64,000 nucleotides of DNA, taken from the NCBI GenBank assembly GCA_016748015.1, contig JAAOMT010000094.1, forward strand, positions 280,429-344,428. The letters are read 5' to 3'. Below the pieces are notes generated by a model. That model made no database searches and had not been told where the DNA came from. It saw nothing but the letters and a program-made list of their open reading frames with translations. A program made the translations under genes and the position numbers. Positions within the stretch are counted from its first letter, which is position 1. The number at the start of each line of letters is the position of its first letter. The DNA is from Geosiphon pyriformis (taxonomy: Eukaryota > Glomeromycota > Glomeromycetes > Archaeosporales > Geosiphonaceae). Positions 8,995 through 56,800 of the stretch are shown here, one piece after another.

Positions 8995-9023
8995 ACAATG
9001 AGAGAATAAGTGAATTTTGACAA

Positions 9024-9040
9024 CCTCACAGGGAGCACCA
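9024..9040 (-). other. Primer binding site of TE-A
   Basis: On the minus strand TGGTGCTCCCTGTGAGG, complementary to a tRNA 3' end finishing in CCA, six bases inside the 5' LTR. Identical 17 bases occur in TE-C and TE-F. I could not name the tRNA. Confidence 0.8.
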
Positions 9041-9046
9041 CTTTTA

Positions 9047-9773
9047 TGTTACAAGTTAGAGTAATAAGCTAACAGATAGCAAGGGAGAACAAGATTGTAG
9101 GGTGATGGAAATAATCAAAGGGAAATTCAACTTTAAAGAGTGAATTAAATGAGTATGGATTCAATATGCAAGATCAGTCTCATAAAATATCTCAGTCGCT
9201 ATTCTTTTTAAAAGTAACTGGGGAATCTGAAGGTAGAGGGATAGTCCATACTGTCAACAATTAATTACCACTGATATAATTCTATGTCTTATGTTGGTGC
9301 TCTTAGAATTTAATATCAGGTATCAACTTGTGCTTTTTAGTCATGTTTATTCAAATAATCTTCAAATGCTACAATTATATATGTCAGGAAAAGGCCAACA
9401 AGTAATCTTTTATCCTAAGATGTTTGGATACTTAAAGGTAAGAAAAGAGAAATTAGTGATAAGAGAGTGATTAAGATGAAAGTTGTTATTTTTATTTATT
9501 TGATTCTTGTTTGAGAGATGATTTTCTACAGCTAAGAGACTCATTGCTTATATAGTTATTGAAAGTGGTCAATGACCAGGTCAACGACTAGGTCAATAAT
9601 CAGGTCAATGATCAAGTCAACAATCAGGTCATTGATTAGATTAATGATCAGGTCAACGGTTAGGTCATTGATCAGGTCAATGATCACTATCTAAAAATAG
9701 AATGGCTAATTATATGACATCAGTGACTAATACATGTGATAACTAATAAAAATTATGAGTTTCAATCATAACA
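9047..9773 (-). repeat. 5' LTR of TE-A
   Basis: Partner of 2006-2708, from TGTTA to TAACA, and 24 bp longer because of the short tandem repeat at 9566-9685. It would carry the promoter for minus-strand transcription. Confidence 0.95.
9566..9685. repeat. Short tandem repeat in the right TE-A LTR
   Basis: Longer copy of the GGTCAATGATCA-type array of the left LTR. The extra 24 bases amount to about two units. Confidence 0.8.
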
Positions 9774-10729: not shown

Positions 10730-11698
10730 TGTTACTGGAGGTTTTTGGTCTCTTTTTTTGAATGTTATTAATGTTTGTTTTGCTGTGAATTCACGTTCTC
10801 AGGAAGTAATTGAACCTTCAATAACTGAATTTATCTTCAAATTATCTCCTATAATTTGAACTGCTGGGCTTATAAGTGGAATAGTCAATTCCATACCAGT
10901 TACTTTATGTAGTTATGTTGTAATAAACATCAACTCTTTTCCAGGAATTGCTTGTCTTGAAGTTCACTAAAATGTGTAGTTACTTTGCTATGAAAGTCAA
11001 CTCTTCTACAGGAATCTTGTCTGTAGTCTACCCTAATAATTGTAATAAAAAAAAAAATAAAAATAAAAAAAATGTAAAAGAAATAGAATTTTGTCAAGGG
11101 AAACGTTTTCTATTCAGGCCTGGAATCACTAACAGTTTATTGAAATTGGTAGCTAATCAATTTCAAAACATTAGTTGTGTTAAGAGAATTTCAAGTGTAA
11201 TAATTTAAGGATTTGGTTTTCAAATATTTGATTTTTATTTGATTTTGTAAAAGGTAATTTGTTTTAATTAAGATATTTAAAGTAAGATGCTATAATAAGA
11301 TATGGAAAGGATATATTTTCTTGAAAAGAGAAGCTTTTTTTTTATACAACTTGTTGTAATACTAGTCTTTGAACTTGCACTTTTCTCTTTGCTCTAATTT
11401 TGGTGAACTAAAAATACATTTTGATAAATTACAAGTTATTTCTATGAATTATTGATTATTTCGGCCAATTTTCCATTAATTTCGACGAATTTTGACTATA
11501 TTAAATAGTTCAGGGTATTGTGTAATTTGATCATCTTAATTTCTATAGTACAAATCGAGTTATTAATTAAATAATGATATTTGATAATTTGGCTAATTAA
11601 TAAGTGATAATCGAAATGATAATAATATATGCTACTTAATAATAATAATTATAAAGATAATTTCATGCTAATTAATAGCTAAAATTCTACTAGTAACA
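10730..11698 (-). repeat. 3' LTR of TE-B
   Basis: 969 bp, repeated at 19562-19776 plus 30055-30788, and similar to the TE-E LTRs. It contains a long A-rich run near 11046 and a paired TTTCGGCCAATTTT / TTTCGACGAATTTT motif near 11459-11492. Confidence 0.93.
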
Positions 11699-15359: not shown

Positions 15360-16200
15360 TTAGAGTTTTAAGAGGACCATATTGATTTTAGAGAGTTTTT
15401 TTTCTAGAACATGATAGTTTTTAGTAGTCAAAATAATATTTGGATTTGGTAATAGGATATGTCTCACAATTTCGATGAAATTAGAAACAATTTGAGAGGT
15501 TTTATCTTGAAAAATGTTGCTATGTATGATCCCAATTTCTAATTTATTTAATAAAACAATGGAATAGTTGTTGGGATTGTAGAAAGTAACTCGAAATTTC
15601 TTTATTTCTTTTGGGATATAGATATTTGGAATTGAGATTTCATGTTTTAAACAGATTTGTTCATTGAATTCAAAGATTTGTTGAGTAGTAGTAGGTTTTA
15701 AGCAAGTGTAGATTTTGTGATGTTCTCTAAAAGGTGAAATGGTAATTGGTTGTGGAAGTTGAAAAATCTGGTAAGATTTACTTTGTGTATTAAGAGCCAT
15801 ATTTACTGGAACTGTGAATTGTTCAGTTGAACCAAAATCTTGAGTTTCTTTTTCACTTTTTCTTAGTTGTTCTCTGTTGTTAACTGATTGTAAACTTGAA
15901 ATGTTGATTAAGAGTAAGTAAATTGCTTGAGCAATTTTCTCTGCATGCTCAATTTTAAATGGTTTTTCAGTTTCATTCTGTAGCATAATAGTAATGTTTT
16001 CAGTGTATTCTGCATCTATGACTTCTCTTCTAATATTGATTCCTTTGCTTGCCAATGATGATCTGAATGCAATTTGAACTATTGCTCTAGGTGGAATTTC
16101 AAGAGTGATTTTGAGATTGATTTTTGTCAAAAACTTTAATTGAAGAACCAAAGTATCTTTTTCTAGATATTTTAAATCATATCCAGTATTAATTTTGTGT
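15360..16200 (-). pseudogene. TE-B dUTPase-like domain and following linker
   Basis: Open from 16151 to 15360, with the first motif just upstream. All five dUTPase motifs are recognisable: INTGYDLKY (near 16180), RSSLASKGI, REVIDAEYTENI, AEKIAQAIYLLLINI and ETQDFGSTEQF. These enzymes hydrolyse dUTP to dUMP and keep uracil out of DNA. Two glycines of motif 3 are changed (G to R and G to E), which fits decay rather than function. The C-terminal 130 residues (ITISPFREH, then YIPKEIKKFRVTFYNPN) form a linker found in all relatives, between dUTPase and reverse transcriptase, possibly a second beta-rich fold. Retroviral dUTPases sit elsewhere in pol or pro. Confidence 0.8.
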
Positions 16201-16339
16201 GCTTTTTCTGGTCTGATTCTTTGGCCATGGTTGTCAAAATATTTAAGTTATAGGGGTGGTTGATTTTTAAGAAGATAGATATGAATAGTTGATAGTTCTT
16301 TTACCCATTCAGATACTCCAAATTCGATTTCATTTTTAT

Positions 16340-17000
16340 CATTTTCATCTGGCAGGGGAATGCTAAGAGCATAGTATTCTAAACACCATTGGTCATCACA
16401 AGGCATAACACATTCTTTACATAATTAAATATTCATTTGCTCTAATCATTGAATTTAAGCTTCTTTGGTTGAGTACATATAACTTGTAATTTGGTGGTAG
16501 GTTTCTACTTTATCTTCATAATCAAATTCAGCTAACTCTATAGTATACTCAATGTATTCAGCTTCTTTTATTTGGTGGACATCTTCTTGAGTAGCTCTAT
16601 TGATTAATGCCATTGTTAAGTTAAAAATCATTTTAGCATCATGAGGATAATAGTACAGTTTATTAAGAGCACTATTATATGCTGCATTGAATGAGGTTCT
16701 TCTTCTCACTTTTTCTGAAATTGATAAGACATATTGAGAGATTTGATCACATACTCCTCTTTTTATTGCAACATCAATCCAGTTGTATTCTTTTGGTAGC
16801 ATATCTCCAAATGTAAGACAAGATGTGTTGTCCTATTTTCCATTTTTTTTTGGGGATTCAAATCGTTCTCTATGGCATGCTTTGCAGAAGTAACAGGTAT
16901 GAGTTTCATATTTTTTTTTTGGGGAAATACAGGCTTCTATAGATGAAAGCTTCTTCTTGTAGTTTTTGCATTTTAGTGGAATATATAGTGGTTTTTTTAT
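16340..17000 (-). pseudogene. TE-B cysteine-rich module
   Basis: Unnamed module between protease and dUTPase. It starts around 16990 with LKCKNYKKKLSSIEACI, then HTCYFCKACHRERFESPKK, and after damage to the KWDNTxCLxC motif continues in the open stretch 16802-16455 as YNWIDVAIKRGVCDQISQY. A helical, tyrosine- and glutamate-rich part follows (KEAEYIEYTIELAEFDYED), then a second cluster LCKECVMPCDDQWCLEYY near 16400. TE-E has the same module better preserved. Cysteine spacing suggests zinc binding; the function is unknown to me. Confidence 0.65.
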
Positions 17001-17149
17001 GGTTCTGGTGTAAAATATCTAACTTTCTTCCATTTTTTTGATTTTTTAAAAATCTCTTGTTTTGTTTCCTCAGCCTAATTAGATGTTGATCCAAGAGCCA
17101 TGTAGGTTTCAGTAAATGGCATTTCTTTCTTCTCCTCAAAATCGAATAC

Positions 17150-19776: not shown

Positions 19777-20639
19777 TGTTACTCATAGAATATAGGAAAT
19801 ATAGTATTATTAGTCAGTAGATATTAGCCAATCAGATGTAGATGTAATAAATGTGAAATTCTAAGATTTCTTTCAAAGGAATTGCAAGATTCCAAGAATT
19901 TCAAGATTCCCTGATGAGAAATCGCAGAATTCCAGAATTCCAGGATTCTTCTCATCAGAAATTGCAGGATTCCAGAAATTCCAGAATTCCTGGTGCAAGG
20001 AATAGAGAAATTGAGGAATCTCAATTATGTATATATAGCAGTAGGATTAAAAGCTAAAAAAACAAACTTCTCAGTTTAGATTTAATCTAAACAACTCTCT
20101 AAATCACAATTATCTAATAAATAACTATTTGTTATCTCAAAAACTACGTCTACTATCAACTATTCATGTTGATAGTAATTGATACTTAACCACATGGGAA
20201 CAATAGCTCTTAATCATGGCTATTAATGGGATACTAAATTTGCAAATTGTTTTGGCTTATTGCTTTATATTTTGTTATTTTCTTTATTTTCTTTGATTTT
20301 GTTATTGTACACTAACCAATTGATTAAAAGTGCTGATTACTGATGTCAAAGATTGCCTGGTAAAAGACTCCTGCAAGTGGGTAGGACACATACAGAAGAT
20401 ATGGATTACTTACTAGAGGATTGCCAGCCACCAAGCCAAGAAAAGAATTGACAGACTTGTGAATCTGGGAAGCTACAGATAAAACAACTATTGAATCTCT
20501 GTCCATTATACAAAGGACTCATTTGGAAAACCTTTAGATACCAATCACTTAAAAATATTATCAACAACACAAGTAGCTTTTGAGCACCAAGTTATGAATT
20601 TGTTATTTGACCTGAGACCCCAAATAATCAACTGTAACA
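19777..20639 (+). repeat. 5' LTR of TE-C
   Basis: 863 bp, same length as 29192-30054. Differences are mostly transitions. The downstream half is similar to the TE-D LTR, and the whole to the solo LTR at 57943-58780. Confidence 0.95.
19855..20005. repeat. GAATTCC-type tandem repeat in the TE-C LTR
   Basis: Imperfect repeats built on GAATTCCAGGATTC and near-palindromic variants. Counterparts lie at about 29275-29410 and 58015-58150. They contain TTCnnGAA pairs such as TTCCAGAA. Confidence 0.75.
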
Positions 20640-20641
20640 TT

Positions 20642-20658
20642 TGGTGCTCCCTGTGAGG
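20642..20658 (+). other. Primer binding site of TE-C
   Basis: TGGTGCTCCCTGTGAGG two bases after the 5' LTR, identical to TE-A and TE-F. Confidence 0.85.
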
Positions 20659-20701
20659 TATAATCCTACAGAGAACCAGCACCAACAAACACTATTCAAA
20701 A

Positions 20702-22700
20702 GTGGCAGAATCAAAAAATATAAGAGCAAACCATTTAGGATTTGCAAAATCTTTATTTCAATACTATTGTCAATACTTGAGATTAAACCACAATCATATA
20801 TCCACCAAATCAGCCTTTAATTTCTATGTCAACAAAAAGATTTTCTCTTTGTTAGGAACACCAGTGAATACTGAATCAGCAAGGGAAACTTTCTACAGAG
20901 AATTAATTCAAAACACCAACTTACTAATAAATCATAATTTCACATTCATTATTACTGAGATCAACAAAGAAATTGAACATCACATCCAACAAAGATATCC
21001 AATTACATATGCTAATAAAGACAAAGGAAAACTACAAACACCAGCAGTAACTCCTAGAAAGATACAACTACCTACTTGGAAGAAGACAAGAGTTGAATCA
21101 CCAACCAATCTATTTTATTACTATACACTCAGAAGCACCATCAACATTTTATTAACAAGCATGTCCACATCAAATGCAACTTCAGTATTTGGATGATTCT
21201 CATTCTAAAGTAAACAAAAGAAAACAGAATTATTAGGACCATATGGCAAATACTTTGAAGGATTTAAATTACAATCACCAATGCCATCAGGAATTCGATC
21301 ACCGCCGCCTCAATCAGACTTTGGAACCACTACCCCATGAGAACTATCTGAAGAAGAAGAGGAAAAAGAGTTGGAAGATCAAGAATTTACTTACCAGAAC
21401 CCGATCACTGAAAACTCGGAAGTCAAAACACCAAATTTTCAAACCCAGCAAAATTTAAAGTTAGAAAACCCAGAAATCAAAACTCCGAATATTTAACCAC
21501 CACCAAATCAGAACAATCAGAACCCCAATCTAATTAATCAACCAGACTTACCTCCTGTTATCGTCATTAACCCACCACTAGTTGAACCGATTAGCCAGCC
21601 ACCACAACAACCACACCAGCAGATTTAACAGCCACTAGTATCACTTCAACAACCACCGCAACCCAACTTAGATTCAATGGCATACACACCAATAGCCAAA
21701 CTCGAGAAATTCACTGGCAAAGAGGACAATGCTTAAGCCTGGATCAATGATGTCACCAAAGCAATTACCACCAATAACTGGGATGATGCCAGAACCATAC
21801 AAGTCATCCCCTATTTTTTTAAAAACATGGCAGACTCTTGGTATCACAGTCTAGCCCAGAAATCTCAAAACTTTAATGCCTTTAAGTTAGAATTTTTGAG
21901 GTATTTTAGTAATAACAACAGCATCAACCGCTTGGCAAGTACTTTCACCACCATCAAACAAGGAGACACAGAAGCAGTCATCACTTACTTGAGATGCTTC
22001 CATAGAAATCTGCACCAAATTCAGGCAATCCAAGCTGAATACTTTACAGTACCACAGATCTTGAACCAATTTATCTGAGGATTGTGCAGTAGTATCCTCC
22101 AGCAAGTACGTTCAATACATCCAGTTGATCTCCCAACTGCCGTGACTCATGCCAGAGATTTTGAAACTGCTTAGTTAGAAGCTAACCATGCCCAAGCTGT
22201 GAATTTAGTAATAAATAGATCATCTGACCTGGATTCCAAGCTAAAACAATTTAGTGACAACATCAATTAGAAACTAAAGGGCTACTTAGCTAACAATCAT
22301 GCAATTTATCAGCCATCCCAATGACATAATGATTTAAGAAACATGAATCGTTTCCAGAATCAATCACATCCAGGATCATCCACTAATTAGTCACGACAGC
22401 CAGAAATGTGTGTCTGCTACAACTGTGATAAACAAGGGCATATTAGGACAAACTGCCATACTTATAGCAACTCACGATCAGAAAATCATTATTGAAACCC
22501 TGATTGCCAGTTTTAGACTCCGAATTACCAATCCAATCAAAAGCAATATCAAAATGCTTACCTGCCTATAATGCAGCAACCAATTTATTAGTCAACAATA
22601 TATCAACCACCAATTTATCAGCTGCAGCCATCAACAATTTATTAATTGCAGCCACAAGTTATTTATTAGCCACAGCCTCAAGTAATTTATCAACTCCAAC
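20702..22700 (+). pseudogene. TE-C gag
   Basis: Starts at a GTG (20702) followed by an open 164-codon stretch with ANHLGFAKSLFQYYCQYLRL; TE-D and TE-F also have GTG here, so the true start is uncertain. A proline- and glutamate-rich hinge follows, with a frame change and back. The capsid region starts near 21690 (AKLEKFTGKEDNA.AWIND), then ADSWYHSLAQKSQNFNAFK (open 21827-22078). The knuckle CYNCDKQGHIRTNC lies near 22415. A Q/Y/P-rich tail with repeated VIYQLQP-like units runs to the protease. Most stops are TAG/TAA for glutamine or TGA for arginine/tryptophan codons. The frame is the same as the protease. Confidence 0.88.
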
Positions 22701-22899
22701 AAGTTCAAATGCCGCACCAAAACTCAGTTACAATAACATCAGAAAATCCAAGATCCAGAATTACCCAAAACTGGAGATCAGCAATAGTTGTTAATCAACT
22801 GATCCCCAGTTCATTAGGCCAACAATCAGAATCTCGTCAGCAGGATTTGGGTATCAGTTCCATCCAAAACCCAAATTCCCAGAACTATTTAAGTCTCTT

Positions 22900-23450
22900 G
22901 GTTATCCCAGAAGATGTTACCTCTAACAATCCAGAACTCAATCAACAACCAACAATACTTACCAACAACATCCCACCAGTAATCATCACCAATGACAAGT
23001 CTTTAACAGCCATCTTTCCATTTGAACTCGAGGAAGTTATGTCAGTTCTCTTATTTAGTAAAGCAGCTCTAGAAGAAAAACCCATTACTGTTATGTACAC
23101 TAATGCGAAAGTTGATGGCCATTCCATCAAGTTAATTCTTGACAGTGATTCAGCAGACAGCATCATCACACAACAACTCATGGATCAATTAGGTCACTGA
23201 GTTGATCAAGCTGTCAGCACTAGAATCATCACTGCCGATGGCACCACAAAAACGCCTATTGGTGAAATTGATGACTTCCCAATTAAAGTTAATGGTATCA
23301 TTACTTCTATCAAAGTCTTGGTGATGGAAGTGACCCAATACCAAGCACTAATGGGCAATGATTAGTTGTCTAAAAACAATGCTATCCTTGATTGGACCAC
23401 ACAGGAGCTCCAGCTCAGCCAAAATAGCCAACACACGCGAGTATTGGCAA
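22900..23450 (+). pseudogene. TE-C aspartic protease
   Basis: Retropepsin in frame with gag. It begins in the open stretch 22709-23200; the active site is LILDSDSADSIITQQL near 23139, with DSG changed to DSD. QLGH is followed by TGA (23198-23200) where TE-D has CGA, then VDQAVSTRIITADGTTKTP, GEIDDFPIKVNGI, and the tail QYQALMGND with TAG for the tryptophan, ending near DWTTQELQL. The missing glycine and two stops make it inactive. Confidence 0.87.
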
Positions 23451-23882
23451 CATGTGGCCATTTCAAACCTAACAATGTCATGACATCAGCACTGCTTATT
23501 GATCTCGGGAAAGAAAAACTAAAGCCTACTTAGGAGGTGTACCAAGTATCATGGGCCAATGTCAACCACAATGAACTGCCACCAATACTTGCCTGGGACA
23601 ACAATAACAATAGAAAGGAGGAACAAGGAAAAAAACCTACCTGTGGAACCACTATCAACACTTGGACTGACAACAAAGACCACCATGACCTACCACTAAT
23701 ACTATCATGGAATGACAACCCTAAAAGAAAGCAAAAAGAAGAACTTATCTGGAAAACGGACGACCTAACCTAGACCAACAACAATGAAAAAGAACCAACA
23801 CCAAGCTGGGAATGGGAAGAAAACAACAAAGGGAAAGGAAAGGCGAAAGAAGAAAAGCCACTGCCAACAAACCCGTATACTT

Positions 23883-24560
23883 TCTATCAATACACAACAC
23901 CACAACAATACATCTATTGCCAACTCAAACTAGTGTGCATCAATTGTGGCAAAAAATTGTTGTTAATGGGCATATGCTGTGATAATGATAAAGAATATCA
24001 GATGACAACCAAGCTCTATTGCCACGCATGTCTTATTGAATGTTTTGGAAGACCAAAACGAATGGGAAAATGGAATAATACACCATGTTTAGTCTGTAAA
24101 GAAACTCTTCTTGATGAAAGAATATGGAATGACATTCCTGAGAGAGGAGGAACGTGCAACATTTCCTGTCAATACACGATCCTCATTAGTGACTAGATTG
24201 AAAAAGGGACACCAATAGAAGCCATTTGGAGAAGAACTGTACAGTGATTGGACAGTTGTCCACACGATGATGATGAATTATGGCGAATGACAATTGCCAA
24301 CATTAAAGGTGCATCACTAGAAGAAATCAGAACAATTAAAAACAACCCACTAGAACCTATTGAGCTTGACTGGGATGCAGAGCCAGTTATAAATTTTCTG
24401 GAACCAGAAGAGTTCCATAAACACTACCAAAACTTGGCACCCACTAGAAAAGAGCAAGAACAATGGCTAGCATAGTTGAATACCAGACTGTGTTGCCATT
24501 GTTTAATTCTCAGTGACTTTGAATATTGTGACAATTGTGACTTCATTTACAATCTACCAC
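23883..24560 (+). pseudogene. TE-C cysteine-rich module with zinc ribbon
   Basis: Best preserved copy of an unnamed module between protease and dUTPase. From 23933: VCINCGKKLL, GICCDNDKEY, LYCHACLIECFGRPKRMGKW, NTPCLVCKETL, ERIWNDIPERGGTCNISCQY. That is four CxxC-like pairs plus single cysteines over about 85 residues. It ends ILISD followed by a stop in place of tryptophan. A middle part (24248-24475) carries PEEFHKHYQNLAPTRKEQEQ. Then comes a second cluster LCCHCLILSDFEYCDNCDF (24485-24545), a C-x2-C...C-x2-C zinc-ribbon pattern. I infer nucleic-acid or protein binding; no named domain is recognised. It is in frame with gag and protease. Confidence 0.72.
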
Positions 24561-24819
24561 CACGTATGATCTACATGATCCCCAAAGATAAAGAACCAAT
24601 CAGCAGCTGTGCATTGGAGTCAGAATTACTGTTCGATCCCAATTCAAACTCCAACAACAATGACGACGAGAATAACAATTCCAGCTCCATTCAAAATAGC
24701 AATGACAATAACAACAATATCAACACAGATTCAAACTCCAACTCAAACTATGAACAATATATCGTGCTTTCTGATCTTACCAAGGAACAAGAATTGAAAT
24801 GGTTCAGTGATAATAATGA

Positions 24820-25596
24820 AGGTATTATGCCAGAATGTGCGCATGATACTGATGCCAGATTTGATTTGAGGTATCCAGGAAAAGATGCCATCAAATTGGA
24901 ACCACATTTATGCATCTGCATTGATCTGAAAATAGTGCTGGAAATCCCAACAACAACAATGGTTCAACTAACATCCCAGAGTAGTTTAGCAAAAAAGAGA
25001 TTAAAATAAGAGGAGGAATAATTGATGCAGAATATGTAGGAAATATCATTGCCATGCTACAAAATAACTCAGAAAAGGCCTATATAATAGAGCCAAACAA
25101 AAAGATAGCACAGACAATATTCTTACCTTTGGTTAAGATAGCTCAGTTAGTACTAGTGGGAAACAGGGAAGAGTTAGGAATAACAGCAAAAGGGATACAG
25201 GGATTTGAGTCAACAGATAGAATAGATGTACCAGTTAATATGGCAGAGAAAAAAATTGTTGGCCAAGAAGAAATTATCTCAACCAGTCAAGCTATTTCCA
25301 TTCCACCATATAGCCAGTACATGCTAGCAATAGAAAGGAAAAAAAAGGAACAAGAACAGATTTTTGAAGCTGAAGCAAATCTTTGTGAATCAGGAAAGAT
25401 TAGACTAATCAATCTCCACATACCAGCCAAAAGCTATAGCTGCATAAAAATTCCTATCTATAACAATACTGGCAATGTCATCAACATACCAGAAGGAACT
25501 ACTATCAGATATTTAACCACAGAAATAGAAGACCAACCACCAAACCCCATTCCAGACTTTCCACAACTTTGTGAATATGTTGACATCACATCATAA
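24820..25596 (+). pseudogene. TE-C dUTPase-like domain and linker
   Basis: An asparagine-rich spacer (24640-24750) precedes MPECAHDTDARFDLRYPG (motif 1 near 24850). Motif 2 is QSSLAKK near 24976. A frame change of one or two bases follows near 25000. Motif 3 is GGIIDAEYVGNI (25012-25050) with the catalytic aspartate and tyrosine, motif 4 KKIAQTIFLPL (near 25099), motif 5 KGIQGFESTDR (near 25190). The linker AISIPPYSQYMLAIE to KIPIYNNTGNVINIPEGT completes the stretch open to 25596. Motif 5 has GFES for GFGS. Trimeric dUTPases of about 140 residues have exactly this motif order. Confidence 0.83.
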
Positions 25597-25623
25597 ACAA
25601 TCTATGAATGAGATGAATGTTAT

Positions 25624-26655
25624 TTGCTCCAATCAGAACAATTAGAACAAATGAACATGGGAAATCTAGACCCACTACAATGTATGCAGCTCAAAATGTT
25701 ATTTAACAATTTTAATGACATCTTTGTCAGCGAAAATGAGTTTGGCCGAACTGATATTATCCAGCATCAGATCAAGACTGGAAATGCAATGCTAATCAAA
25801 CAGCAAGCATACAGAGTACCACCAACCAGCCATGAAATCATTTGTCAAGAGATTAACTGAATGCTTGACAATGGATTACTTCAGCCATTAATGAGCCTAT
25901 GGTTGTCACCAGTAGTACTTGTCCATAAGAAGAATGGAAAAATCCGATTTTGTGTGAACTACAGGAAACTCAATGGTGTAACTCATAGAGACAGCTATCC
26001 AATTCCACAGATACAAAAACTATTCGATGCTTTTGGTGGAAACAAATAGTTTTCAATGTTAGACTTAAATAATGGTTACTGACAAGTAGCCATGGATCTA
26101 ACTAACAAAGAAAAAACAGCATTCACCACAAGAAAGAAAAATTTTGAATTTGAAGTCATGTCATTTAGCTTGATGAATGCTTCAGCCACATTTCAACAGC
26201 TAATAGAAATAGTATATACCAGCTTATTATGGAAATCAGTAGTAGTTTATCTGGACAACACCAATGTGTTTTCAAAAACCTTTGATGACCATTTATATCA
26301 TCTCCAACAAGTGTTCAAAAGACTAAGATGAGCAGGATTAAAATTGAATGCAACAAAATGTTTCTTTGGCAAAACAGAACTCAAGTTCTTGGAGCATATA
26401 GTGAGCAAAGATGGCATTAAGATGGATCCAGATAAGATAGAGATAATAAAGAAATTTCCAGTACCAACCAACATGACCAAGTTAAAATCATTCTTGGGAT
26501 TTGCAAGCTACTATTGCCACTTTATCAAAGATTTTTCTAAGATAGCACAGCCATTCAATCAGCTCCAAACCAAGAATGTAAAATATGAATGGACTAAAAC
26601 CCAGCAAAAAGCTTTTGACATCTTAAAAAAAAGTTTATTTAAGCTCTGGTATTGA
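25624..26655 (+). pseudogene. TE-C reverse transcriptase
   Basis: Continues in the frame of the dUTPase. It starts with the conserved lead NMGNLDPLQCMQLKMLFNNF and GRTDIIQHQIKTG, then VVLVHKKNGKIRFCVNYRKL, RDSYPIPQI, NGY followed by TGA for tryptophan, QVAMD, ASATFQQLIE, VVVYLDNTNVFSKTF (YLDD changed to YLDN near 26250), and FLGFASYYCHFIKDFSKIAQ. In-frame stops are TGA before MLDNG and AGLKLN (arginine in relatives) and TAG before FSMLDL. Inactive because of the D to N change. Confidence 0.92.
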
Positions 26656-27060
26656 TCTATCCAGATCATAGCAAATCATTCATTATTATCACTGATGCAT
26701 CAGGCCAAGCATTGGGAGCAGTATTATCTTAGAGAAGACCAGATAGAAAAGAACATCCAGTTACATATGTCAGCCGAGGTTTAATACCAGCCAAAAAGAA
26801 CTATGGAACACCAGAATTAGAACATTTAGCAATTTATTGGGCAGTTATGAAATAAAAAAAATACTTAAGCCAAAAGTTTGAGATATACACAGACCACAAA
26901 GGATTGACATCACTTCAAAAACAAGAATTTGGAGACAGAAGACAGTCAAGATGGAAAATGACACTTTCGCCATATACTTATACCATATATTATAAAAAAA
27001 GAAAAGACAATGGAAATGCCAATGGTTTGTCATGAATGAGACAAATCTAAGAACATTTTG
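26640..27060 (+). pseudogene. TE-C RNase H
   Basis: Reading changes frame in the A-run near 26625. Recognisable in order are LIYPDHSKSFIIITDASGQA with its aspartate, LGAVLS followed by TAG for glutamine, RRPDRKEHPVTYVSRGL, KKNYGTPELEHLAIYWAVM with the glutamate, and EIYTDHKGLTSL with the aspartate. It ends at NGNANGLS.MRQI where TGA replaces an arginine codon. The catalytic acids seem retained. Confidence 0.85.
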
Positions 27061-27149
27061 ACCCAAAAATATAATAAAACTAGAACAATACCAACAAAAA
27101 ATAGAACAAAAGATGAACACACAAAAATACCAACAACTTTAACATTATA

Positions 27150-28495
27150 TAAATACTTAACAGTTTAAGGAAAAATTATCTCAACTGAAACAAAAGAGGA
27201 TCAAACAACAATCAAAATATTTTATCACTCATCAAAATAGACTTTATCGGAAGAACAGAAAAGATTCAGATCAATTAATCAAAGTAATTACAGAACTGAA
27301 AAAAGAGACAATACTGTTTAACATGCACTCAGATCCAACTGCAGGACATTTTCATAAAGAAGCAACCATAGAAAGAACCAAAAAGAGATACTATTGGCCA
27401 TCAATGTATCCAAATATCATACAATATGTGCAAAATTGTAATACTTGTCAAAGAAAAGAAGGAACAAGACCTAGCAAACCATTAAGACCAATTAAAGTGG
27501 GACAACCATTTGACTGCATTGGAATCGACTTAGTTGGATCATTGACAATTACCAGCAGAGACAACAGATATATTGCAGTAGCCATGGACTATCTTACTAA
27601 ATGGCCAGAAGCAAAAGCAATTCAAAAAGCGGATGCAGAATTCATTGCTGAATTTGTTCATTAAGAATTAATCTGCTGACATGGATGTCCAAAAGAATTA
27701 TTGTTAGATCAAGGAACTCACTTTGTGAACAGAACACTAGTAGAACTAAGTCAAAGATTTGGAGTTAAGAGACTATTGTTATCACCATACCATCCACAAA
27801 CCAATGGACTAGTTGAAAGATTCAATAGAATACTGTGTGAAGCAGTTGCCAAGATCAGTCAAAAAAACCAAAATGAATGGGATTTGTTTATACCATCAAT
27901 ACTATTTACTTATCAGACAATGAAGCAAGACACTACACAAACAACACCATTTGAATTAGTATACAGTAGAACAGCAACACTACCAGTTGAGATAGAAGTC
28001 AACACTTATCTAACAGAACCAATAATTGTAAACAATTTTCAGGAAATATTACTAAAAAAAACATCTGATTTGATGAAAACTCTAAAAAACAAGCAATGAA
28101 GAGCAGCTGATAACATTAAAAAGGCACAAGAGAAACAAAAAAAGAGGCACGATAACCAACTACTAGACAAACCAGTTGAATTCAAGATTGGAGACAAAGT
28201 ACTTTTATATCATACTAAAGCGGAAAAACAATGGAATGGGAAATTTAACCCCAAATGGGACAGACCATTTCACATAGAAGAAATTCTAGGAAATAGAGCT
28301 TACAAATTAAGACTGGACAACAAAATTTTAGCCAAAGCAGCACATGGTAATCAACTGAAACCATATTACCAGATAGCATCAGCATTTACCAATAACATTC
28401 CACAACTGAAAGTACAAAGAATACTAATCCAACCAGATAAGATTCTACAAGACCTAGAACCAATTATTATCATTAACAATAACACGTCCAATTGA
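27150..28495 (+). pseudogene. TE-C integrase
   Basis: The N-terminal zinc region is open from 27323 (MHSDPTAGHF, YYWPSMYPNI, CNTCQRKEG). The core has the three catalytic residues: GIDLVGSL near 27525, LLLDQGTHFVN near 27700 and NGLVERFNRIL near 27815, with 35 residues between the second aspartate and the glutamate. Damage: TAA for glutamine and TGA for arginine at 27664-27679 (FVH.ELIC.HGCPKEL), and TGA at NKQ.RAADN. The C-terminal part has VEFKIGDKVLLYHTKAEKQW and GNRAYKLRL, ending DLEPIIII and TGA at 28495. It would join viral-like DNA ends to host DNA; three codon changes separate it from an open frame. Confidence 0.92.
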
Positions 28496-28519
28496 TCGAC
28501 AAAAAGAATATATAAGAAC

Positions 28520-29178
28520 ATGGTTGATGTGACAGAAAAAATCAGAAAAATGGAAATTATGAACAATATTCATTCACTAGCCCAACAAATTTTTTAATTA
28601 ATTCAACACCAGAAAATGAAAATTACAATCAATCAACAAACCATTCATTACAAAAATATGGCAAAGAGACCACAACACAAAGCACAGAAAAACTTAAAAA
28701 TGTTGTTGACAAGATCATGACCAAGATAAAATTGGCCATAAAAGAACAACAAATAGTCGGATTACACTAAGAACTTATCAAAGAAACTTGGACTTGGTAG
28801 ACACAACAATTTCTGAAAAACTATTGTTATTTTCACTTGGGACAACACATAAATATCCAGAATTTATACACTGACAAAACAAAATGGTTATTTAACACAA
28901 TAATACTGAGACAACTGGAACAATTTGTGGGAAAGAACAATCTAAACACACAAGCTTGAGCCATTTACCAGCTATATATGAGATTTCAAAACCAACCAGA
29001 AATCTTACTTAACACAGCAATGGATACAGTTACGAGTAATCAATTAGGAAAAATAATCAATGCCCAATTTAAAGAACTACAAACTAAAATAACACAAGTA
29101 ATACTTGAAAAAAAAGTTCAAGAAATAATTCAAGAAGGGGAATTAAAGGAATTAAATTTTGATGAAACTCAATATTAA
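28520..29178 (+). pseudogene. TE-C third ORF, unknown function
   Basis: Coding trace right after the integrase. ATG at 28520 is the likely start, with at least one frame change before the well-kept C-terminal part. Readable segments are KLKNVVDKIMTKIKLAIKEQ, the aromatic stretch KETWTW.TQQFLKNYCYF, LEQFVGKNNLNTQA.AIYQL, and the open end 28978-29178 with RFQNQPEILLNTAMDTV, NAQFKELQTKI and NFDETQY, then TAA touching the purine tract. FVGKNNL and ILLNxxMxxV match the TE-D and TE-F third ORFs. Function unknown; helical, no membrane segment. Confidence 0.65.
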
Positions 29179-29191
29179 AAGGAGAGAATAA
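29177..29191 (+). other. Polypurine tract of TE-C
   Basis: AAAAGGAGAGAATAA directly before the 3' LTR and overlapping the stop of the third ORF. Confidence 0.85.
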
Positions 29192-30054
29192 TGTTACTTA
29201 TAGAATATAAGAAATATAGTATTATTAGTCAATAGATATTAGTCAATTAGATGTAGATGTAGTAAATATGAAATTCCAGGATTTCTCTTAGAGAAATTGC
29301 AGAATTCCAGGAATTTCAGAATTCTCCAACAAAAAATCGCAGAATTCCAGAATTCCAGGATTCCTCTTATCAGGAATCGCAAAATTCCAGGAATTCCAGG
29401 ATTCCTGGCACAAAGAATAGAAGAATTGAGAAATCTCAATTATATATATATAGCAGTAGGATTAGAAGCTGAAAAGACAGATCTCTCAGTTTAGATTTAA
29501 TCTAAGCAACTCTTCAAATCACAATCATCTAATAAATAACTATTTGTTATCTCAAAAACCATGTCTACTATTAACTATTTATGTTGATAGTAATTGATAC
29601 TTAACCACATGAGAACAATAGCTCTTAATCACGGCTATTGATGGGATACTAAATTTGCAAATCACCTTGGCTTATTGCTTTATATTTCATTATTTTCTTT
29701 ATTTTCTTTGATTTTGTTATTGTGCACTAACCGATTGATTAAAAGCACTGATTACTAACGTCAAAAATTGCCTGGTAAAAAACTCCTGTGAGTGGATAGG
29801 ACACATACAGAAAATACGGATTACTTACCAGAGGATTGCCGGCCACCAAGCTGAGAAAAAAATTGACAGACTTGCGAGTTTGGGAAGCTATAAATAAAAC
29901 AATTATTGAATCTCTGTTCATTATACAAAGGACTCATTTGGAAAACCTTCAGATACCAACTACTTAAAAATATTATCAACAACACAAGTAGCTTTTGAGC
30001 ACCAAGTTACAAGTTTGTTATTTGACCTGAGACCCCAAATAATCAACTATAACA
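29192..30054 (+). repeat. 3' LTR of TE-C
   Basis: 863 bp, partner of 19777-20639, ending TAACA and followed by the target copy CCAG. Confidence 0.95.
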
Positions 30055-30788
30055 CCAGAAATTGTTCATCATTACTTTGCTGTGAAAGTCAATTCTTCTG
30101 CAGGAATCTTGTCTGTAGGCTACCCTAACAATTATAATAAGAAAAAAAAATAAAAATAAAAAAAATGTAAAAGAAATAGAATTTTGTTAAGAGAAACGTT
30201 TTCTATCCAGGCCTAGAATTACTAACAGTTTATTGAAATTGGTAGCTAATCAATTTCAAAACGTTAGTTGTGTTGAGGGAATTTCAAGTATAATAATTTA
30301 AGGATTTGGTTTTCGAATATTTAATTTTTATTTGATTTTGTAAAAGATAATTTGTTTCAATTAAGATATCTAAAGTAAGATACTATAATAAGATATAGAA
30401 AGGATATATTTTCTTGAAGAGAGAAGCTCTTCTTTTATACAACTTGTTATAATACTAGTCTTTGAACTTGCACTTTTCTCTTTGCTCCAATTTTGGTAAA
30501 CTAAAGATACATTTTGGTGAACTACAAGTTATTTCTACAAATTATTAATTATTTCGGCCAATTTTCCATTAATTTCGGCGAATTTTGACTATATTAAATA
30601 GTTTAGAGTATTGTGTAATTTGATCATTTTAATTTCTATAATACAAATTGGGTTATTGATTGAGTAATAATATTTGATAATTTGGTTAATTAATAAATGA
30701 TAATCGAAATGATAATATATGCTACTTAATAATAATAATTATAAAAATAATTTCATGCTAATTAATAGCTAAGATTCCACTAGTAACA
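30055..30788 (-). repeat. 5' LTR of TE-B, second part
   Basis: Resumes the TE-B LTR after TE-C and aligns to 10944-11698. It ends TAACA at 30788, followed by the target copy CTGT. It keeps TTTCGGCCAATTTT and TTTCGGCGAATTTT near 30552-30590. Confidence 0.93.
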
Positions 30789-34355: not shown

Positions 34356-35326
34356 TGTTACCAAAGGTTTTTGGTCTCTTTTCTTGAATGTTGTTAATGT
34401 TGATCTGCTATAAATTCATGTTTTTAGGAAGTAGTTGAATCTCCAATAACTGTATTTATCTTCAAATTATCTTCTATAATTTAAACTGCTGGGCTTATAA
34501 GTAGAATGGCCAATTCTATGCCAGTTGCTTTGTATAATTATGTTGTAGTAAACGTCAACTCTTTTCCAAGAATTGCTTGTTTAGAAGCTTACTAAAAATG
34601 TATAGTTACTTTGCTGTGAAAGTCAACTTTTCTACAGAAATCTTGTTTGTAGGCTACCCTAATAATTGTAATAAGAAAAGAAAAGAAAAATAAAAAAAAT
34701 GTAAAAAAAATAGAATTTTATCAAGAAAAACGTTTTCTGTTCAGGCCTGGAGTCACTAACAGATTATTGAAATTGGTAGTTAATCAATTTCAAAACGTTA
34801 GTTGTGTTGAGGGAATTTTAAGTACAATAATCAAAGAATTTGGTTTTTGAATATTTAATTTTTATTTAAATGTATAAAAAATGATTTGTTCTAATTAAGA
34901 TATCTGAAGTGAGATACTATGTTAAGATTCTATGAGAAAATACATTTTCTTGAAGAAAAAAGCTTTTCTTTTATACAACTTGTTGTAGTACTAGTCTTTA
35001 AACTTGCACTTTTCTCTTTGCTACAATTTGGGTAAACTAAAGATACATTTCGGTCAATTACAAGTTATTTCACTGAACTATTAATTATTTCAGCCAATTT
35101 TCATTAATTTTGGCGAATTTTGATTATGTTAAATGGTTTAGGGTATTGTGTAATTTAATCATCTTAATTTCTAAAGTACAAATCGGATTATTGATTGAGT
35201 AATAATATTTGATAATTTGATTAAATAATAAGTGATAATCAAAATAATAATAATGTATGCTAATTAATAATAGGAATTATAAAGATAATTTCATGCTGAT
35301 TAATAGCTAAAATTCTATTGGTAATA
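34356..35326 (-). repeat. 3' LTR of TE-E
   Basis: 971 bp, partner of 53389-54359, related to the TE-B LTRs. Confidence 0.94.
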
Positions 35327-38933: not shown

Positions 38934-40733
38934 GTGGTGACTATTGGAACAATAGGAAAGAACCACTCCTCATATGGAAAAGCACTATTTCAATACTTTC
39001 AAAAAGACCTAGAAATACCAGCAGAAACCACTTATACAGAAAGTGATTTTTGTAACTATATTAGTGCAAAAATTGACTGCTTGTTAGACCACGCAACTGA
39101 TACAGGAAGACTTGGAGAACAAATCCATCAAAGCTTACTAGGGTATTCAACAACCATGACTACCTGAGCAATTGCTAAAACTCTGTGCATATTTGATATA
39201 GACATTAAATATTACGTGGCACAATAATTCCCTTAAGTACAACAACCAGTGAAATTCGATCTTGAGGAATATGAAAACAAATCCAACAACCCCATAACTG
39301 CCCAAGCCAAGTCCACAGTCAACAAGAAACCAAGGGTCCTCTCCCCAATAACTCCATCATACCATCAGACACCCCAAAGTAGAATTGTATTCAACCCACC
39401 TCTGGAAACCCAGTCAGAAACACCATGAACTCCTGGAAATCCACACCCTTGAAATCAACACAGTTAGACCAAATCACTAGGAGAATACAGATCACTGTTT
39501 GGAAATCTTACCCCAGTAGCCAGTCAAATAGAAAAAAACCCATCGACTTGGGAACAGCCACCAGCACAAAACCTAGCAGAATTAGCATCTCCCCTGATGG
39601 AAGAAACAGCTATCTTACAACCTATTGGTTCAAGTGACAAAGAAAAGCAACTAGCATTAGCATCCGGAGAACACTCAAATATGCAGACACCAATCCCTTT
39701 AAACATAACCAGTAACACCCCACCCATTAACCGGATCATGACTTACTGGGATATCGCTAAATTGGAAAAATTCTCTGGTGAAGAAGATAATGCATATTCT
39801 TGGATTGCGGATGCCAAGAAAGCAATTACTGCTAATGGTTAGAACAACAACCACACAATTCAGGCACTGCTGTTCTTTTTGACCAAAACCACCAATTCGT
39901 AGTACCAGAGCCTGGCAGAGAAGCCTACCTCCTTTACCAAGTTTAAATTCGCATTTCTGCAATACTTCTGTGACCCCAATACATTAATTTGATTGCAGAA
40001 TCAATTCAGCATAATTAAACAAAAAGATCATGAAACAGTAACTACTTATTTTGAATGATTCAATCAAATCCTGCATTAAATATTAGCTATCAAAAGGGAC
40101 TACTACACCACGGCATAAGTTCTTAATCAATTCATTAAAGGATTGTAGAGTAGTATTCTAAGATCCATAAAACCCCACCATTTGACCAGTTTACAAGATG
40201 CTGTCGCTCTTGCTCGTGATTTTGAGTCTGCAAAACAAGAAGCAAATCATACCCAAACTGTTAATTTAGCTATTAATGAAATCTCTGACATCGATACAAA
40301 GATAACCCAATTGAGTGAGAAACTAATTCAGAAAATTGAGGGATTTTTAGCCAGAACTACAGGAACTTACCAACCACCCCAATGGAGAGAAAATAACAAC
40401 AACAGCAGATACCCACAGCAACAGAACCATCAGCAACAGCAACAACCTTGGAGATCCAATCTTCGCAACTGTTACTACTGCCAGAAACTTGGACACTTTG
40501 CCCGTGACTGCAGAAGGAAGATTATGGACCAAAATCAAGGAAACCCATATCAGCAACCCAGATATCAGCAAAACATGGTACCCCAATATTCCATACCTCA
40601 GAATCAACCACCCCTATATACACAACAAGTCCCATACACTCAACCACCACCCCAGAATTATTATCAACCACCACCAATGACACAAACAATCCCTTACTAT
40701 CAAACTTCCCCTTACAGCCCATCTAGACCTTGA
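38934..40733 (+). pseudogene. TE-F gag
   Basis: Starts at GTG 38934 with 77 open codons (KNHSSYGKALFQYFQKDLEI), then a proline-rich hinge with stops. The capsid region resumes at 39597 (AKLEKFSGEEDNAYSWIAD). A well-kept stretch 40182-40733 holds ALARDFESAKQEANHTQTV, the knuckle CYYCQKLGHFARDC near 40470, and a Q/P/Y-rich tail. Stops include TAG for tryptophan (ANG.NNNH, TNS.YQSL) and TAA/TAG for glutamine. One frame holds from 38934 to 40733, but the protease that follows is in another. Confidence 0.88.
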
Positions 40734-41450: not shown

Positions 41451-41689
41451 TACGTGTAGACATTTTAAAACCCAATGTACCGAGGAATCCTTTATTGAAT
41501 TCAAAGACACATCAATGCTACCAACCATTGAGACCTATCAAGTTTCATGGGCAGATGATTATCAAACTGAACTACCCTCACCACCAACCTGGGAAGAAAA
41601 AAGAAAAAGCAGAGCCAAAGAAGAACCCCAATTATCATCACTAGGATACGTAACCTTGGACCAAAGAAACTTATTTTACCAACCCCCAA

Positions 41690-42310
41690 GACTAATATGT
41701 GTTGATTATGGAAAAAAACTATCCACTATGGGCGCATGTATTAGGAACAACAAAGAATGGCCCACCACTACCAAATACTATTGCAGACTTTGTTTACTGG
41801 AAAGATTTGGACAACCAAAACGACAAGGCAAGTGGGACAACACGCCGTGCCTTGCATGTGGCAAAATCTTGCCAGATAAAAGACTCTGGAATAATATGCC
41901 TGGCAGAGGAAGAACATGTGACGAGGCTTGTCAATACACCATATTAATCAACAATTGGATATGAAAGGGAACTCCCATTGAGGATGCTTGGAAATGAGCA
42001 CTCAACAGGCTGGACGGTTATCCACACAATGACCATGAAATCTGAAGAATAGCAAGCACCAAGGCTGAAGGTGCCATGCCCGAAGAAATACAAGAAATCA
42101 AGGACAACTCTTGAATGCCCGAATATAATAGACCCAACTACTCCAAGGATGATTTTTTTAGAATCAATATTAGGAATTGGTCCCAACTCACGAAGAACAG
42201 AAACAAAGGTTGGCTTATTTGAATACCAAACTGTGCGATCACTGTTTGATCCTCTGTCACTTCCAGTACTGCAACAAATGTGATCTCATATTCAATCTGT
42301 CTCCAAGAAT
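41690..42310 (+). pseudogene. TE-F cysteine-rich module with zinc ribbon
   Basis: In the open stretch 41515-41964: LICVDYGKKLSTMGACI (second cysteine of the first pair changed to tyrosine), YYCRLCLLERFGQPKRQGKW, NTPCLACGKILPDKRLW, GRTCDEACQY. The middle part is frameshifted (near 42110). The ribbon KLCDHCLILCHFQYCNKCDL lies at 42229-42290. Same positions and spacing as in TE-C. Function unknown; zinc binding inferred from cysteine spacing. Confidence 0.72.
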
Positions 42311-42439
42311 ACTGTTTCCAATCACTGAACTACTTGAGCCCAAAGAAGAGATATTGATCACCGAGAACATGTCATTTCAAGATCCAACTGAGGATACTAA
42401 AACAGAACAGTATCTCGCGTATTCTGACCTATTCAAAGA

Positions 42440-42965
42440 ACTAGAGCTAAAATAGTACAGTGACAATGAGGAAAGAATCTGCCCCAAAAGAGTACATAAC
42501 ACCGATGTCAGTTTTGATCTATAATACTCCGAACAATCACCCATCATTATAGCCCCACATTTTTTTGTAAAAATAAATCTTAAGATAGCATTAGAAATTC
42601 CTGTTAGTACAATAATACAAGTTGCCTTTCAATCTAGTTTAACCAAAAAAAGAATCAACATAAAAGAAGGAATTATCAATGCCAGTTACACGGAAAACAT
42701 CATCATAATGCTACAGAACAATTTGAACAGACTCTACAAAATAGAATCACAAGAAAAGATTGCCCAAGCTATCTTCCTACCCCTAATCAAAATACCCCAA
42801 TTAATCCTGGTAACAACCCAAAAAAAGTTAGGCCTCACTGCCCAAGGAATCAACAGATTTGGATCAAGTGGAAAAGGAAACGTACCAGTTAATTTCACAG
42901 AAGAAGACAGTGACCAGGTAGAATTTATCAACACCGACACTGTCATCTCTATTCCTCCATACTGA
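42440..42965 (+). pseudogene. TE-F dUTPase-like domain
   Basis: The five motifs in order are NTDVSFDL near 42502, QSSLTKKRI near 42631, EGIINASYTENI near 42670 (D of GVID changed to N), QEKIAQAIFLPLIKI near 42752, and QGINRFGSSGKGN near 42845. The linker with ISIPPY follows and a stop at 42964. The motif 3 change removes the catalytic aspartate, so this copy is inactive, but overall preservation is good. Confidence 0.82.
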
Positions 42966-49000: not shown

Positions 49001-50010
49001 TCAATAAGCTTGTTGACATTTTGGTAGAGCATCTTCTGTGTGGATCTGATGTTGAATAATTTTTGTTTTTCCAAGATTATTGTTGTCTTTTGCAAATATA
49101 TCTGCAAATTCAGCTATTAGCTGTTTTAATTGTCTTTGTTGTTGGGGTTTTAAGAGACTCATGTTGATTTGAGAGAGTTTTTCTTCTAAAAGATGGTAGT
49201 TTTCAGTAGTAGGAATAATGTTTGGATTTAGAAGTAATATATATCTTACAATTTCGATAAAATTAGAGACCATTTGGGGGTTTTCATCTTGAAAAATGTT
49301 ACTGTATATGATTTCAATCTCTAATTTGTTCAATAAGACAATAGGATAATTATTGGGGTTGTAAAATATGACTCAAAATTTTTTCATTCCTTTGAGAATA
49401 TAAACATTTGGAATTGAAATTTCATGCTTTAAACAAATTTGTTTATTGGCTTCAAAAATTTGTTGGGTAGTGGTGGGTTTTGAGCAAGTGTAAATTTCTT
49501 GATGTTCTCCAAAAAGTGAAATAGTGATTGGTTGGAGAAGTTGAAGAATCTGGTAAGATTCATTCTGTGCATTGAGAGCTATATTTACTGAAACTGTAAA
49601 TCGTCTAATTAAACCAAAACCTTGCATTCCTCTTTTATTTTTTCTCAATTGTTCTTTGTTATCAACTGATTGTAAACCCAAAATGTTGATTAAAAATAAG
49701 TAAATTGCTTGGGCAATTTTCTCTGCATGCTCAATCTTGAATGGTTTTTCAGTTTTATTCTGTAACATGATAGTGATGTCTCCAATGTATCTTGCATCTA
49801 TAACTTCTTCTCTAATGTTGATTCTTTTGCTTGCCAATAATGATCTGAATGCAATTTGAACCATTGCTTCAGGTAGAATTTCAAGAGCAATTTTGAGATT
49901 GATTTTTGTTAAGGACTTTGGTTGAAGAACCAAAGTATCTTTTCCTGAATATTTTAGATCATATCTAGCATTAATTTTGTGTGCTTTTTTTGGTCTGATT
50001 TCTTGGCCAT
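49001..50010 (-). pseudogene. TE-E dUTPase-like domain and linker
   Basis: Open 50188-49373, the longest dUTPase reading frame in the window. Motifs are KINARYDLKYSGKD near 49975, RSLLASKRI, EEVIDARYIGDI, EKIAQAIYLFLINI and RGMQGFGLIRRF. The linker ITISLFGEHQEIYTCSKPTT to PNVYILKGMKKF follows, and after one stop continues 49333-49001 with FADIFAKDNNNLGKTKIIQH, the lead into reverse transcriptase. The catalytic aspartate and tyrosine of motif 3 are kept, but the first glycine is changed to glutamate and motif 5 is weak. It connects to the zinc-binding part upstream in the same frame. Confidence 0.83.
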
Positions 50011-50129
50011 GGTTGTCGAAATATTTAAGTTGTAAGGTTGGTTGATTTTCAAGAAAATAGATGAAGGTGGTTGGTAATTCTTCTATCAGTTCAGATACTC
50101 CAAATTCAATTTCATTTTTATCATTCTTA

Positions 50130-50760
50130 TCTGGCAGAAGAATGCTAAAAACATAGTATTCTAAACACCATTGGTTATCACAAGACATAACATATTCTTT
50201 ACATAATTAAATGTTCATTTGCTCTAATTGTTGAATTTGAGCTTCTTTGGTAGGGTATATATGACTTGCAATTTGGTGGTAGATTTCTACTTTATCTTTA
50301 TAATCAAATTCAGCTAATTCCATAGTATACTCAATATATTCAGCTTCTTTCATTTGGTGGACATTTTCTTGGGTGGCTCCATTGATTAATGTTATTGCTA
50401 ATTCAAAAATCATTTCAGTATCATGAGGATAGTAATACAGTTTGTTAAGAGCACTGTTGTATGCTGTATTGAATGAGATTCTTCTTTTGACTTTTTCCGA
50501 AATTGATAAAACATATTGGCAGGTTTGGTCACATATTTTTCCTCTTATTGCAATATCAATCCAGTTGCATTCTTCAGATAGCATATTTTCACATGTAAGG
50601 CAAAATGTGTTATCCCATTTTCTACTTCTTTTTGGAGATCCAAATCGTTCTCTATGGCATGCTTTACAGAAGTAGTAGGTGTGAGGTTTATATTCTTTTT
50701 CTGGGGAAATACAGGCTCCCATAAATGAAAGTTTCTTTTTGCAATCTTTGTATTTTAGTG
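50130..50760 (-). pseudogene. TE-E cysteine-rich module
   Basis: Best copy of the TE-B/TE-E version. From about 50750 CKKKLSFMGACISPEKEY, HTYYFCKACHRERFGSPKRS, RKWDNTFCLTCENML, CNWIDIAIRGKICDQTCQY, then a helical arm KVKRRISFNTAYNSALNKLY and KEAEYIEYTMELAEFDYKD (open 50722-50207). A second cluster MSCDNQWCLEYY begins at 50188. Differs from TE-C/D/F in the arm and in the second cluster, which has fewer pairs. Named family unknown to me. Confidence 0.72.
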
Positions 50761-50999
50761 AGATGTATAGTGGTTTTTTTTATGATTCTGATGTGAAATA
50801 CCAAACCTTCTTCCATCCTCTTGGTTTTTTAAAAATTTTTTGTTCTGTGTCCTCAGTCCAATTGAATGTTGATCCAAGAGCCATGTAGGTTTTAGTAAAT
50901 GGTATTTTTTTCTTCTTTTCAAATTCGAATACTAGGGCTTTTTCTGATCATTTGTTGAAAGTACCACAAGTAGCAGGTACTATGATATATTATCCTTGA

Positions 51000-56129: not shown

Positions 56130-56800
56130 TATGTGTATTAATGGATTGTAAATAAGATCACACTCATTACAATATTAAAAGTTACAAGAAATCAAATAGT
56201 GGTCACATAATTGGATATTTATTTTTTCCAACCATTACTCTTGTTCCTCTTGAATGGATGCTAAATTCTGGTAATGTTCATGAAATTCTTCTGGGCCTGT
56301 TTCAATATCTAGAAAGGCATCAGGATTGGAAATAAAAACAACTTCAACTGGTTTAGATGGATTGTTTTTTATTTCTAAGATCTTATTAAGCGAAGTGTTT
56401 TCTATCTTGGTGTTGGCCATTTTCCAAATCTTGTCTTTATTGTGTAGATAACTGTCCAAGGGAGAGATTGCTTGATGCCAGACTGCAGTTATTGGGATTT
56501 TACAATTCATCCAGTCATTAATGAGAATTGTGTATTAATATGATGCATCACAGGTTTCTTTTTGACCAGAAATGTCATTTCATATTCCTTCATTGAGCAA
56601 TTGTTCACCACAAGCAAGACATAGTTCATTGTCCTACTTGCCTTGGCATTTTAAATAGCCATAGTGTTTATGATAGCATGATTTGCAATAGTAATAGGTT
56701 CGTGTTCAGTAGTCTTTATCAGATACAATTCAAGCTTCCATAAAGAACAACTTTTTTTTGCAATCCTTGTACTTAAGTGGAATATAAAGTGGCTCTGGTC
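56130..56800 (-). pseudogene. TE-D cysteine-rich module with zinc ribbon
   Basis: Degraded but colinear with TE-C: KKLFFMEA near 56755, TYYYCKSCYHKHYGYLK, DNELCLACGEQL, KETCDASY near 56560, then the middle part (open 56510-56235) with PEEFHEHYQNLASIQEEQ, and the ribbon LCDHYLISCNF.YCNECDL near 56200-56140. An asparagine-rich spacer (56040-55975) leads to the dUTPase. One cysteine of the ribbon has become tyrosine. Confidence 0.68.

Follow-up and report, generated by a model that had tools for sequence, protein, structure and literature searches.

A conserved cysteine-rich module of about 225 amino acids lies between the protease and the dUTPase of Ty3/gypsy LTR retrotransposons in Geosiphon pyriformis, and because of its CxxC pairs it is probably a domain that binds zinc. 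We analyzed it in a 64,000-nucleotide stretch of genomic DNA (the window), in which an initial annotation had placed an unnamed cysteine-rich module at five sites. A module profile from which the window's own copies had been left out was run on 2741 stop-to-stop pieces of at least 15 amino acids from the window (E ≤0.01). It matched 17 pieces, which fell at exactly the five annotated places and nowhere else in the window, and it gave no matches against the reversed window pieces or against ten residue shuffles of them. The five copies are of two types, A and B.

16332-17006, minus strand: module copy of TE-A, type A (3 matched pieces)
23894-24574, plus strand: module copy of TE-C, type B2 (3 matched pieces)
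41656-42314, plus strand: module copy of TE-D, type B1 (4 matched pieces)
50114-50779, minus strand: module copy of TE-E, type A (2 matched pieces)
56178-56798, minus strand: module copy of TE-F, B-type (5 matched pieces)

Module copies and their place in the element

All five window copies are interrupted by stops or frame changes, and single pieces of the TE-D and TE-F modules score weakly (13-20 bits). In genome copies, TGA is frequent among the in-frame stops, and tyrosine is the usual replacement for a lost cysteine, as expected from G-to-A/C-to-T decay. The matched pieces resolve a first cysteine-rich part, a middle stretch and a second cysteine cluster.

23894..24193, plus strand: TE-C module part 1, CxxC..C..CxxC..CxxC..CxxxC (147.8 bits)
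24248..24472, plus strand: TE-C stretch predicted to be helical (75.5 bits)
24476..24574, plus strand: TE-C second cysteine cluster, CxxC-x8-CxxC (28.3 bits)
41656..41961, plus strand: TE-D module part 1 (164.5 bits)
41998..42111, plus strand: TE-D middle stretch, reduced to two pieces (13.4 and 17.8 bits)
42174..42314, plus strand: TE-D second cysteine cluster (61.7 bits)
50210..50779, minus strand: TE-E module part 1 and middle stretch, a single open piece (311.3 bits)
50114..50206, minus strand: TE-E second cysteine cluster (25.2 bits)
16836..17006, minus strand: TE-A module part 1, first piece (74.9 bits)
16458..16832, minus strand: TE-A end of module part 1 and middle stretch (178.7 bits)
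16332..16424, minus strand: TE-A second cysteine cluster (36.5 bits)
56178..56798, minus strand: TE-F module, five pieces (16.6, 77.6, 13.8, 14.2 and 20.0 bits)

In TE-F, YCNECDL is readable in the piece at 56001-56174.

The annotated position between protease and dUTPase is borne out by protein P0001 (locus L064), a single open frame of 716 amino acids in which Pfam places the protease (59-168) and the dUTPase (511-640) on either side of the module (approximately 250-475). Corresponding pieces flank the module copies in the window.

22709..23197, plus strand: TE-C open piece upstream of the module, ending in the start of an aspartic protease (weak Pfam match, 0.096; the placement is consistent with P0001, whose protease match is significant)
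25054..25596, plus strand: TE-C open piece downstream of the module with the C-terminal part of the dUTPase (PF00692, E 2.1e-4, 21.5 bits, just under the cut-off of 22)
42525..42962, plus strand: TE-D open piece with dUTPase (PF00692, E 3.5e-9)
49373..50188, minus strand: TE-E open piece with dUTPase and, at its start, the end of the second cluster (PF00692, E 3.1e-14)
15360..16151, minus strand: TE-A open piece with dUTPase (PF00692, E 9.1e-13)

In the four elements scanned, the dUTPase thus exceeds the Pfam cut-off in TE-A, TE-D and TE-E and falls just below it in TE-C. Downstream of the dUTPase we found reverse transcriptase (RT) in TE-D and integrase in TE-C, and both elements are flanked by LTR pairs. 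Among the proteins, gag (PF03732) was found on P0041, P0125, P0127 and P0130, and the aspartic protease on P0001, P0003 and P0127. With parts pooled over several copies, the host elements are Ty3/gypsy LTR retrotransposons that carry a dUTPase between protease and RT.

TE-C (19777-30054), whose LTRs (19777-20639 and 29192-30054) are 89.1% identical, appears to be nested inside an A-type element (10727-30788) with LTR pieces at 10980-11698 and 30072-30788 that are 92.4% identical. TE-D likewise appears to be nested inside the A-type TE-E (34353-54359); its LTRs (37800-38869 and 46907-47937) are 85.6% identical, and those of TE-E (34356-35316 and 53389-54349) are 90.7% identical. A further LTR element at 2021-9773 (pair 89.5% identical) has RT and integrase and no module match, and dUTPase was not found in six scanned pieces of it.

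Two other stretches of these elements drew our attention. Open pieces of 188-240 amino acids occur past the integrase near element 3' ends (L065:7759-8451, plus strand; L066:423-1142, minus strand; window 46128-46691, plus strand); none of the three has a Pfam match, and they are a possible further accessory region. An additional stretch between dUTPase and RT (P0001 641-716, P0002 465-600; FTVPVNI...IYTC...YNPNNYPI) also has no Pfam match.

Cysteine architecture, subfamilies and selection

The module consists of four cysteine pairs and one single cysteine, an acidic stretch predicted to be helical, and then CxxC-x8-CxxC. Its conservation was assessed on 401 distinct stop-free segments, which remained after identical rows and P0001-P0004 were dropped from a set of 413; that set was drawn from 176 proteins and from 76 loci and the window, and a genome copy and the gene model of one place may both count in it. 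The cysteine columns align, and 14 are common to the subfamilies: 13, 16, 26, 41, 44, 63, 66, 86 and 90 in part 1, and 196, 199, 203, 208 and 211 in part 2. Across the 401 segments their conservation runs from 85.3% (column 13, 168/197) to 99.5% (column 90, 220/221). The annotated motifs FGxPKRxxKWDNTxCLxC and WxDIxxRGxxCxxxCQY are both present. The annotated CxxC pairs are kept as well, with the reservation that the first cysteine of pair 1 is the least conserved of the fourteen (168/197 distinct segments). In the 413-segment set this residue is tyrosine in 33 of 209 segments, which makes the assignment of zinc ligands uncertain. The unpaired cysteine of MGAC is also kept (191/203 distinct segments), and K, W, Q and Y columns near the cysteines are equally conserved, at 96-100% (413 segments). 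For the second cluster, the annotated form LCxHCLI..YCxxC holds for the B type only; the corresponding A-type sequence is LCEECVMPCDxQWCLEC. In one B2 copy (L069) column 203 is serine, so that CxxC-x8-CxxC remains in part 2.

TE-A and TE-E carry type A modules, and TE-C, TE-D and TE-F carry type B, which divides into B1 (the copy at 41.7 kb) and B2 (the copy at 23.9 kb and its genome relatives). The module cysteines are shared by the three subfamilies A, B1 and B2, and two further cysteines, 38 and 74, are present in A rows and absent from the aligned B rows. The A and B1 window copies are 48% identical over 86 amino acids. Between an A copy (L066) and the B2 copy L069, 72 of 211 positions are identical, and cysteines are kept more often (13/17) than other residues (59/194; one-sided Fisher p 2.5e-4).

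We estimated dN/dS for part 1, measuring the module domain alone, from 24 hand-picked stop-free copies (10 A1, 2 A2, 4 B1 and 8 B2). Median values were 0.08 for A1-A2 (17/20 pairs usable; median dS 1.5, near saturation), 0.24 for A1-B1 (38/40) and 0.27 for A1-B2 (49/80); A2-B2 gave 0.30 from just 2 of 16 pairs and B1-B2 0.18 from just 1 of 32, and none of the eight A2-B1 pairs was usable. Between subfamilies, the module protein has changed far less than its silent sites. Within subfamilies the median was 0.16 for B2 (20/28 pairs), 0.56 for A1 (44/45) and 0.46 for B1 (6/6), and the single A2 pair gave 0.63. We read the low values as selection during element activity and the high values as decay after insertion; recent selection is not supported, since the within-A1 and within-B1 values fit such decay.

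Candidate relatives and possible roles

Searches for a known domain returned no assignment. Over 36 module rows, the best Pfam match was LIM (E 0.0041, 5/36 rows) and the best NCBIfam match was HVO_0758 (E 0.0036, one row); no Pfam cut-off shown was reached on module pieces, ten further pieces included, and PDB sequence searches gave nothing significant. The annotated description of an unnamed conserved module of zinc type therefore stands, with its residues conserved between subfamilies and zinc binding deduced from the cysteine pattern.

These weak matches bear on the idea that the module goes back to a known zinc domain (LIM, NMD3-type, HNH/endonuclease VII or TRASH/FCS-type), captured from a host gene and now degraded. 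The CxxC...CxxC of the C-terminal LIM finger resembles the first finger of module part 1. However, LIM (PF00412) reached at best 17.8 bits against a cut-off of 22.9. The two fingers of a LIM domain are joined by a 2-residue linker, in contrast to the 18 residues that separate pair 2 from pair 3 in the module (C46 and C65 in L077 numbering). The NMD3 zinc region (PF04981) reached 15 bits against a cut-off of 24.9 (best E 0.018, in 4/36 rows), and the ten further pieces scored lower. The second finger weakly matched DUF2256 (0.31) and DUF2116, a 'probable treble clef' (4.3), and the module presumably resembles endonuclease VII and TRASH/FCS-type domains. HNH and endonuclease VII treble clefs have conserved catalytic histidines, and the module has no histidine column at or above 80% in part 1 and none above 93% over its whole length. 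No host-gene name occurs among the matches listed in the database searches described below (best 120 of 239; 105), all of which are named 'hypothetical protein'. We consider capture of a known domain unlikely.

Two AlphaFold2 models of the module, built from 36 and 46 rows with different first sequences, reached mean pLDDT values of 49.0 and 54.8 and do not support a fold assignment; fold searches gave no significant match. These low-confidence models differ around the first cysteine pair, and in both of them one helix begins inside the second CxxC and another inside CxxxC. Such helix starts would fit two tandem treble-clef-like fingers. The poor structural confidence and the lack of any known relative in our searches might suggest that the module is a polyprotein spacer or scaffold that has no binding partner and whose cysteines merely stabilize a small fold. 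Yet the near-invariant K, W, Q and Y columns and the low A1-A2 dN/dS suggest more than a spacer, and we regard this explanation as quite improbable.

The TE-C and TE-D elements carry a zinc motif of another kind in gag.

22415..22456, plus strand: TE-C gag CCHC zinc knuckle (C-x2-C-x4-H-x4-C pattern)
40470..40511, plus strand: TE-D gag CCHC zinc knuckle (pattern; PF00098, 2.1e-6)

The knuckle is present in both A- and B-type elements, and it lies outside the module in the window and in six of eight fetched A loci; in TE-A and TE-E it carries an internal stop, and in TE-F it was not found. Like the nucleocapsid knuckle (PF00098), the module is a putative small cysteine-based zinc motif within the same element, but unlike it the module lacks C-x2-C-x4-H-x4-C: the 13 of 173 proteins that have this pattern have it always outside the module match. 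Because gag of both types holds its own separate knuckle, the module neither replaces the nucleocapsid nor is a moved version of it.

A second nucleic-acid-binding domain, nucleocapsid-like or chaperone, that works on the RNA or cDNA of the element in the course of reverse transcription would agree with the tandem CxxC pairs, the conserved basic motif PKRxxKW and a location that adjoins the dUTPase and precedes RT. The net charge in three copies, however, is 0 to +3 in part 1, -5 to -10 in the middle stretch and -3 to -7 in part 2, values that do not suggest a nucleocapsid-like binder, and gag already supplies a CCHC knuckle. We therefore see this role, the main alternative to the adaptor reading below, as possible but rather doubtful. 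Since part 1 is roughly neutral, the rest is acidic and gag has its own knuckle, protein binding by the module seems somewhat likelier than direct binding of nucleic acid.

We tentatively favor, as a reading that falls a little short of probable, a zinc-held accessory domain of the Ty3-type Gag-Pol that serves as an adaptor. The nine cysteines of part 1 would hold two zinc ions in two knuckle-plus-helix (treble-clef-like) fingers, CxxC-x8-CxxC of part 2 would hold a third, and the acidic stretch would act as a spacer between the fingers of the two parts. The module would enter the virus-like particle together with the Pol enzymes, and the protease would release it attached to the dUTPase or alongside it. 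It could act by holding dUTPase or Pol to a partner; candidates are Gag, a host protein, and the RNA or cDNA of the element.

Distribution and comparison with known dUTPase-bearing elements

The best 120 of 239 matches among module-bearing database proteins are all from Geosiphon pyriformis. A region search with P0041 in a collection of 5.8 billion proteins (E ≤10), in which candidate proteins measured approximately 688-2187 amino acids, gave 105 matches including the query, again all Geosiphon. The module has thus so far been seen only in this species; to our knowledge, no other fungus is known to host a cyanobacterium as an endosymbiont. Searches of its own genome gave at least 150 scored matches for each query, with 3959 first-look candidates for A, 4369 for B1 and 3628 for B2; these counts are lower bounds and the three lists may overlap. 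The assembly comprises 129 Mb with 64.35% repeats, and its largest scaffold is 2733.91 kb (PMC9453076). One could go further and imagine an undescribed three-zinc family, born or captured in Geosiphon-lineage retrotransposons and existing only there, that links the dUTPase to a partner in the host or in the particle. It might, for example, prevent uracil from entering cDNA where reverse transcription takes place, or direct integration, and would in this way have aided the very high copy number. We think this distinctly unlikely.

With the dUTPase region of P0130 as query, we obtained 43 matches at E ≤0.1, namely 42 Geosiphon proteins (query included) and P0179, a 1683-residue Ty3 polyprotein with protease (140-240), dUTPase (351-478), RT, integrase and chromodomain. 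Its enzymes follow the same order as in the Geosiphon elements. It differs in having a chromodomain and a short protease-dUTPase linker, approximately 110 amino acids with two cysteines, in which the module was not found. A chromodomain-bearing relative that lacks the module is what one might expect if, in elements with no chromodomain visible in the integrase, the module served as a targeting part that anchors the pre-integration complex on chromatin or on a host factor. Room for such a role comes from ten scanned pieces: three, from the integrase C terminus, match the SH3-like Tf2-1 domain, each below the cut-off, and none has a chromodomain. Yet the module is coded far from the integrase and beside the dUTPase, and P0179 is a single relative rather than a survey. 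We judge a targeting role very unlikely.

If the module binds zinc and a partner, it adds a new accessory component to the pol of abundant Geosiphon retroelements, and a domain kept in three subfamilies offers a handle on how Ty3 elements acquire parts. Ty3 elements with a dUTPase are already known; what is new is a cysteine-rich accessory domain in an otherwise ordinary element of known kind. dUTPases are reported in fungal chromoviruses and are enriched in Entomophthora muscae (PMC2774666, PMC11105155, PMC8647823). In the open-licence PMC literature, in the portions of text that our searches returned, we found no description of a conserved domain like this one, rich in cysteine, about 225 residues long and placed between the protease and the dUTPase. 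PosPlaTy3-5 of Postia placenta resembles the Geosiphon elements in carrying a dUTPase between protease and RT of a Ty3-type Pol; it is set apart by description only, as the passages of the source that concern it mention no cysteine module before the dUTPase (PMC2864245). Juno, Vesta and TelKA of bdelloid rotifers likewise have a dUTPase between protease and RT, and Juno is described as having an additional zinc knuckle downstream of that enzyme (PMC5408684), in contrast to the Geosiphon elements, which place about 225 amino acids with 14 shared cysteine columns before the dUTPase.
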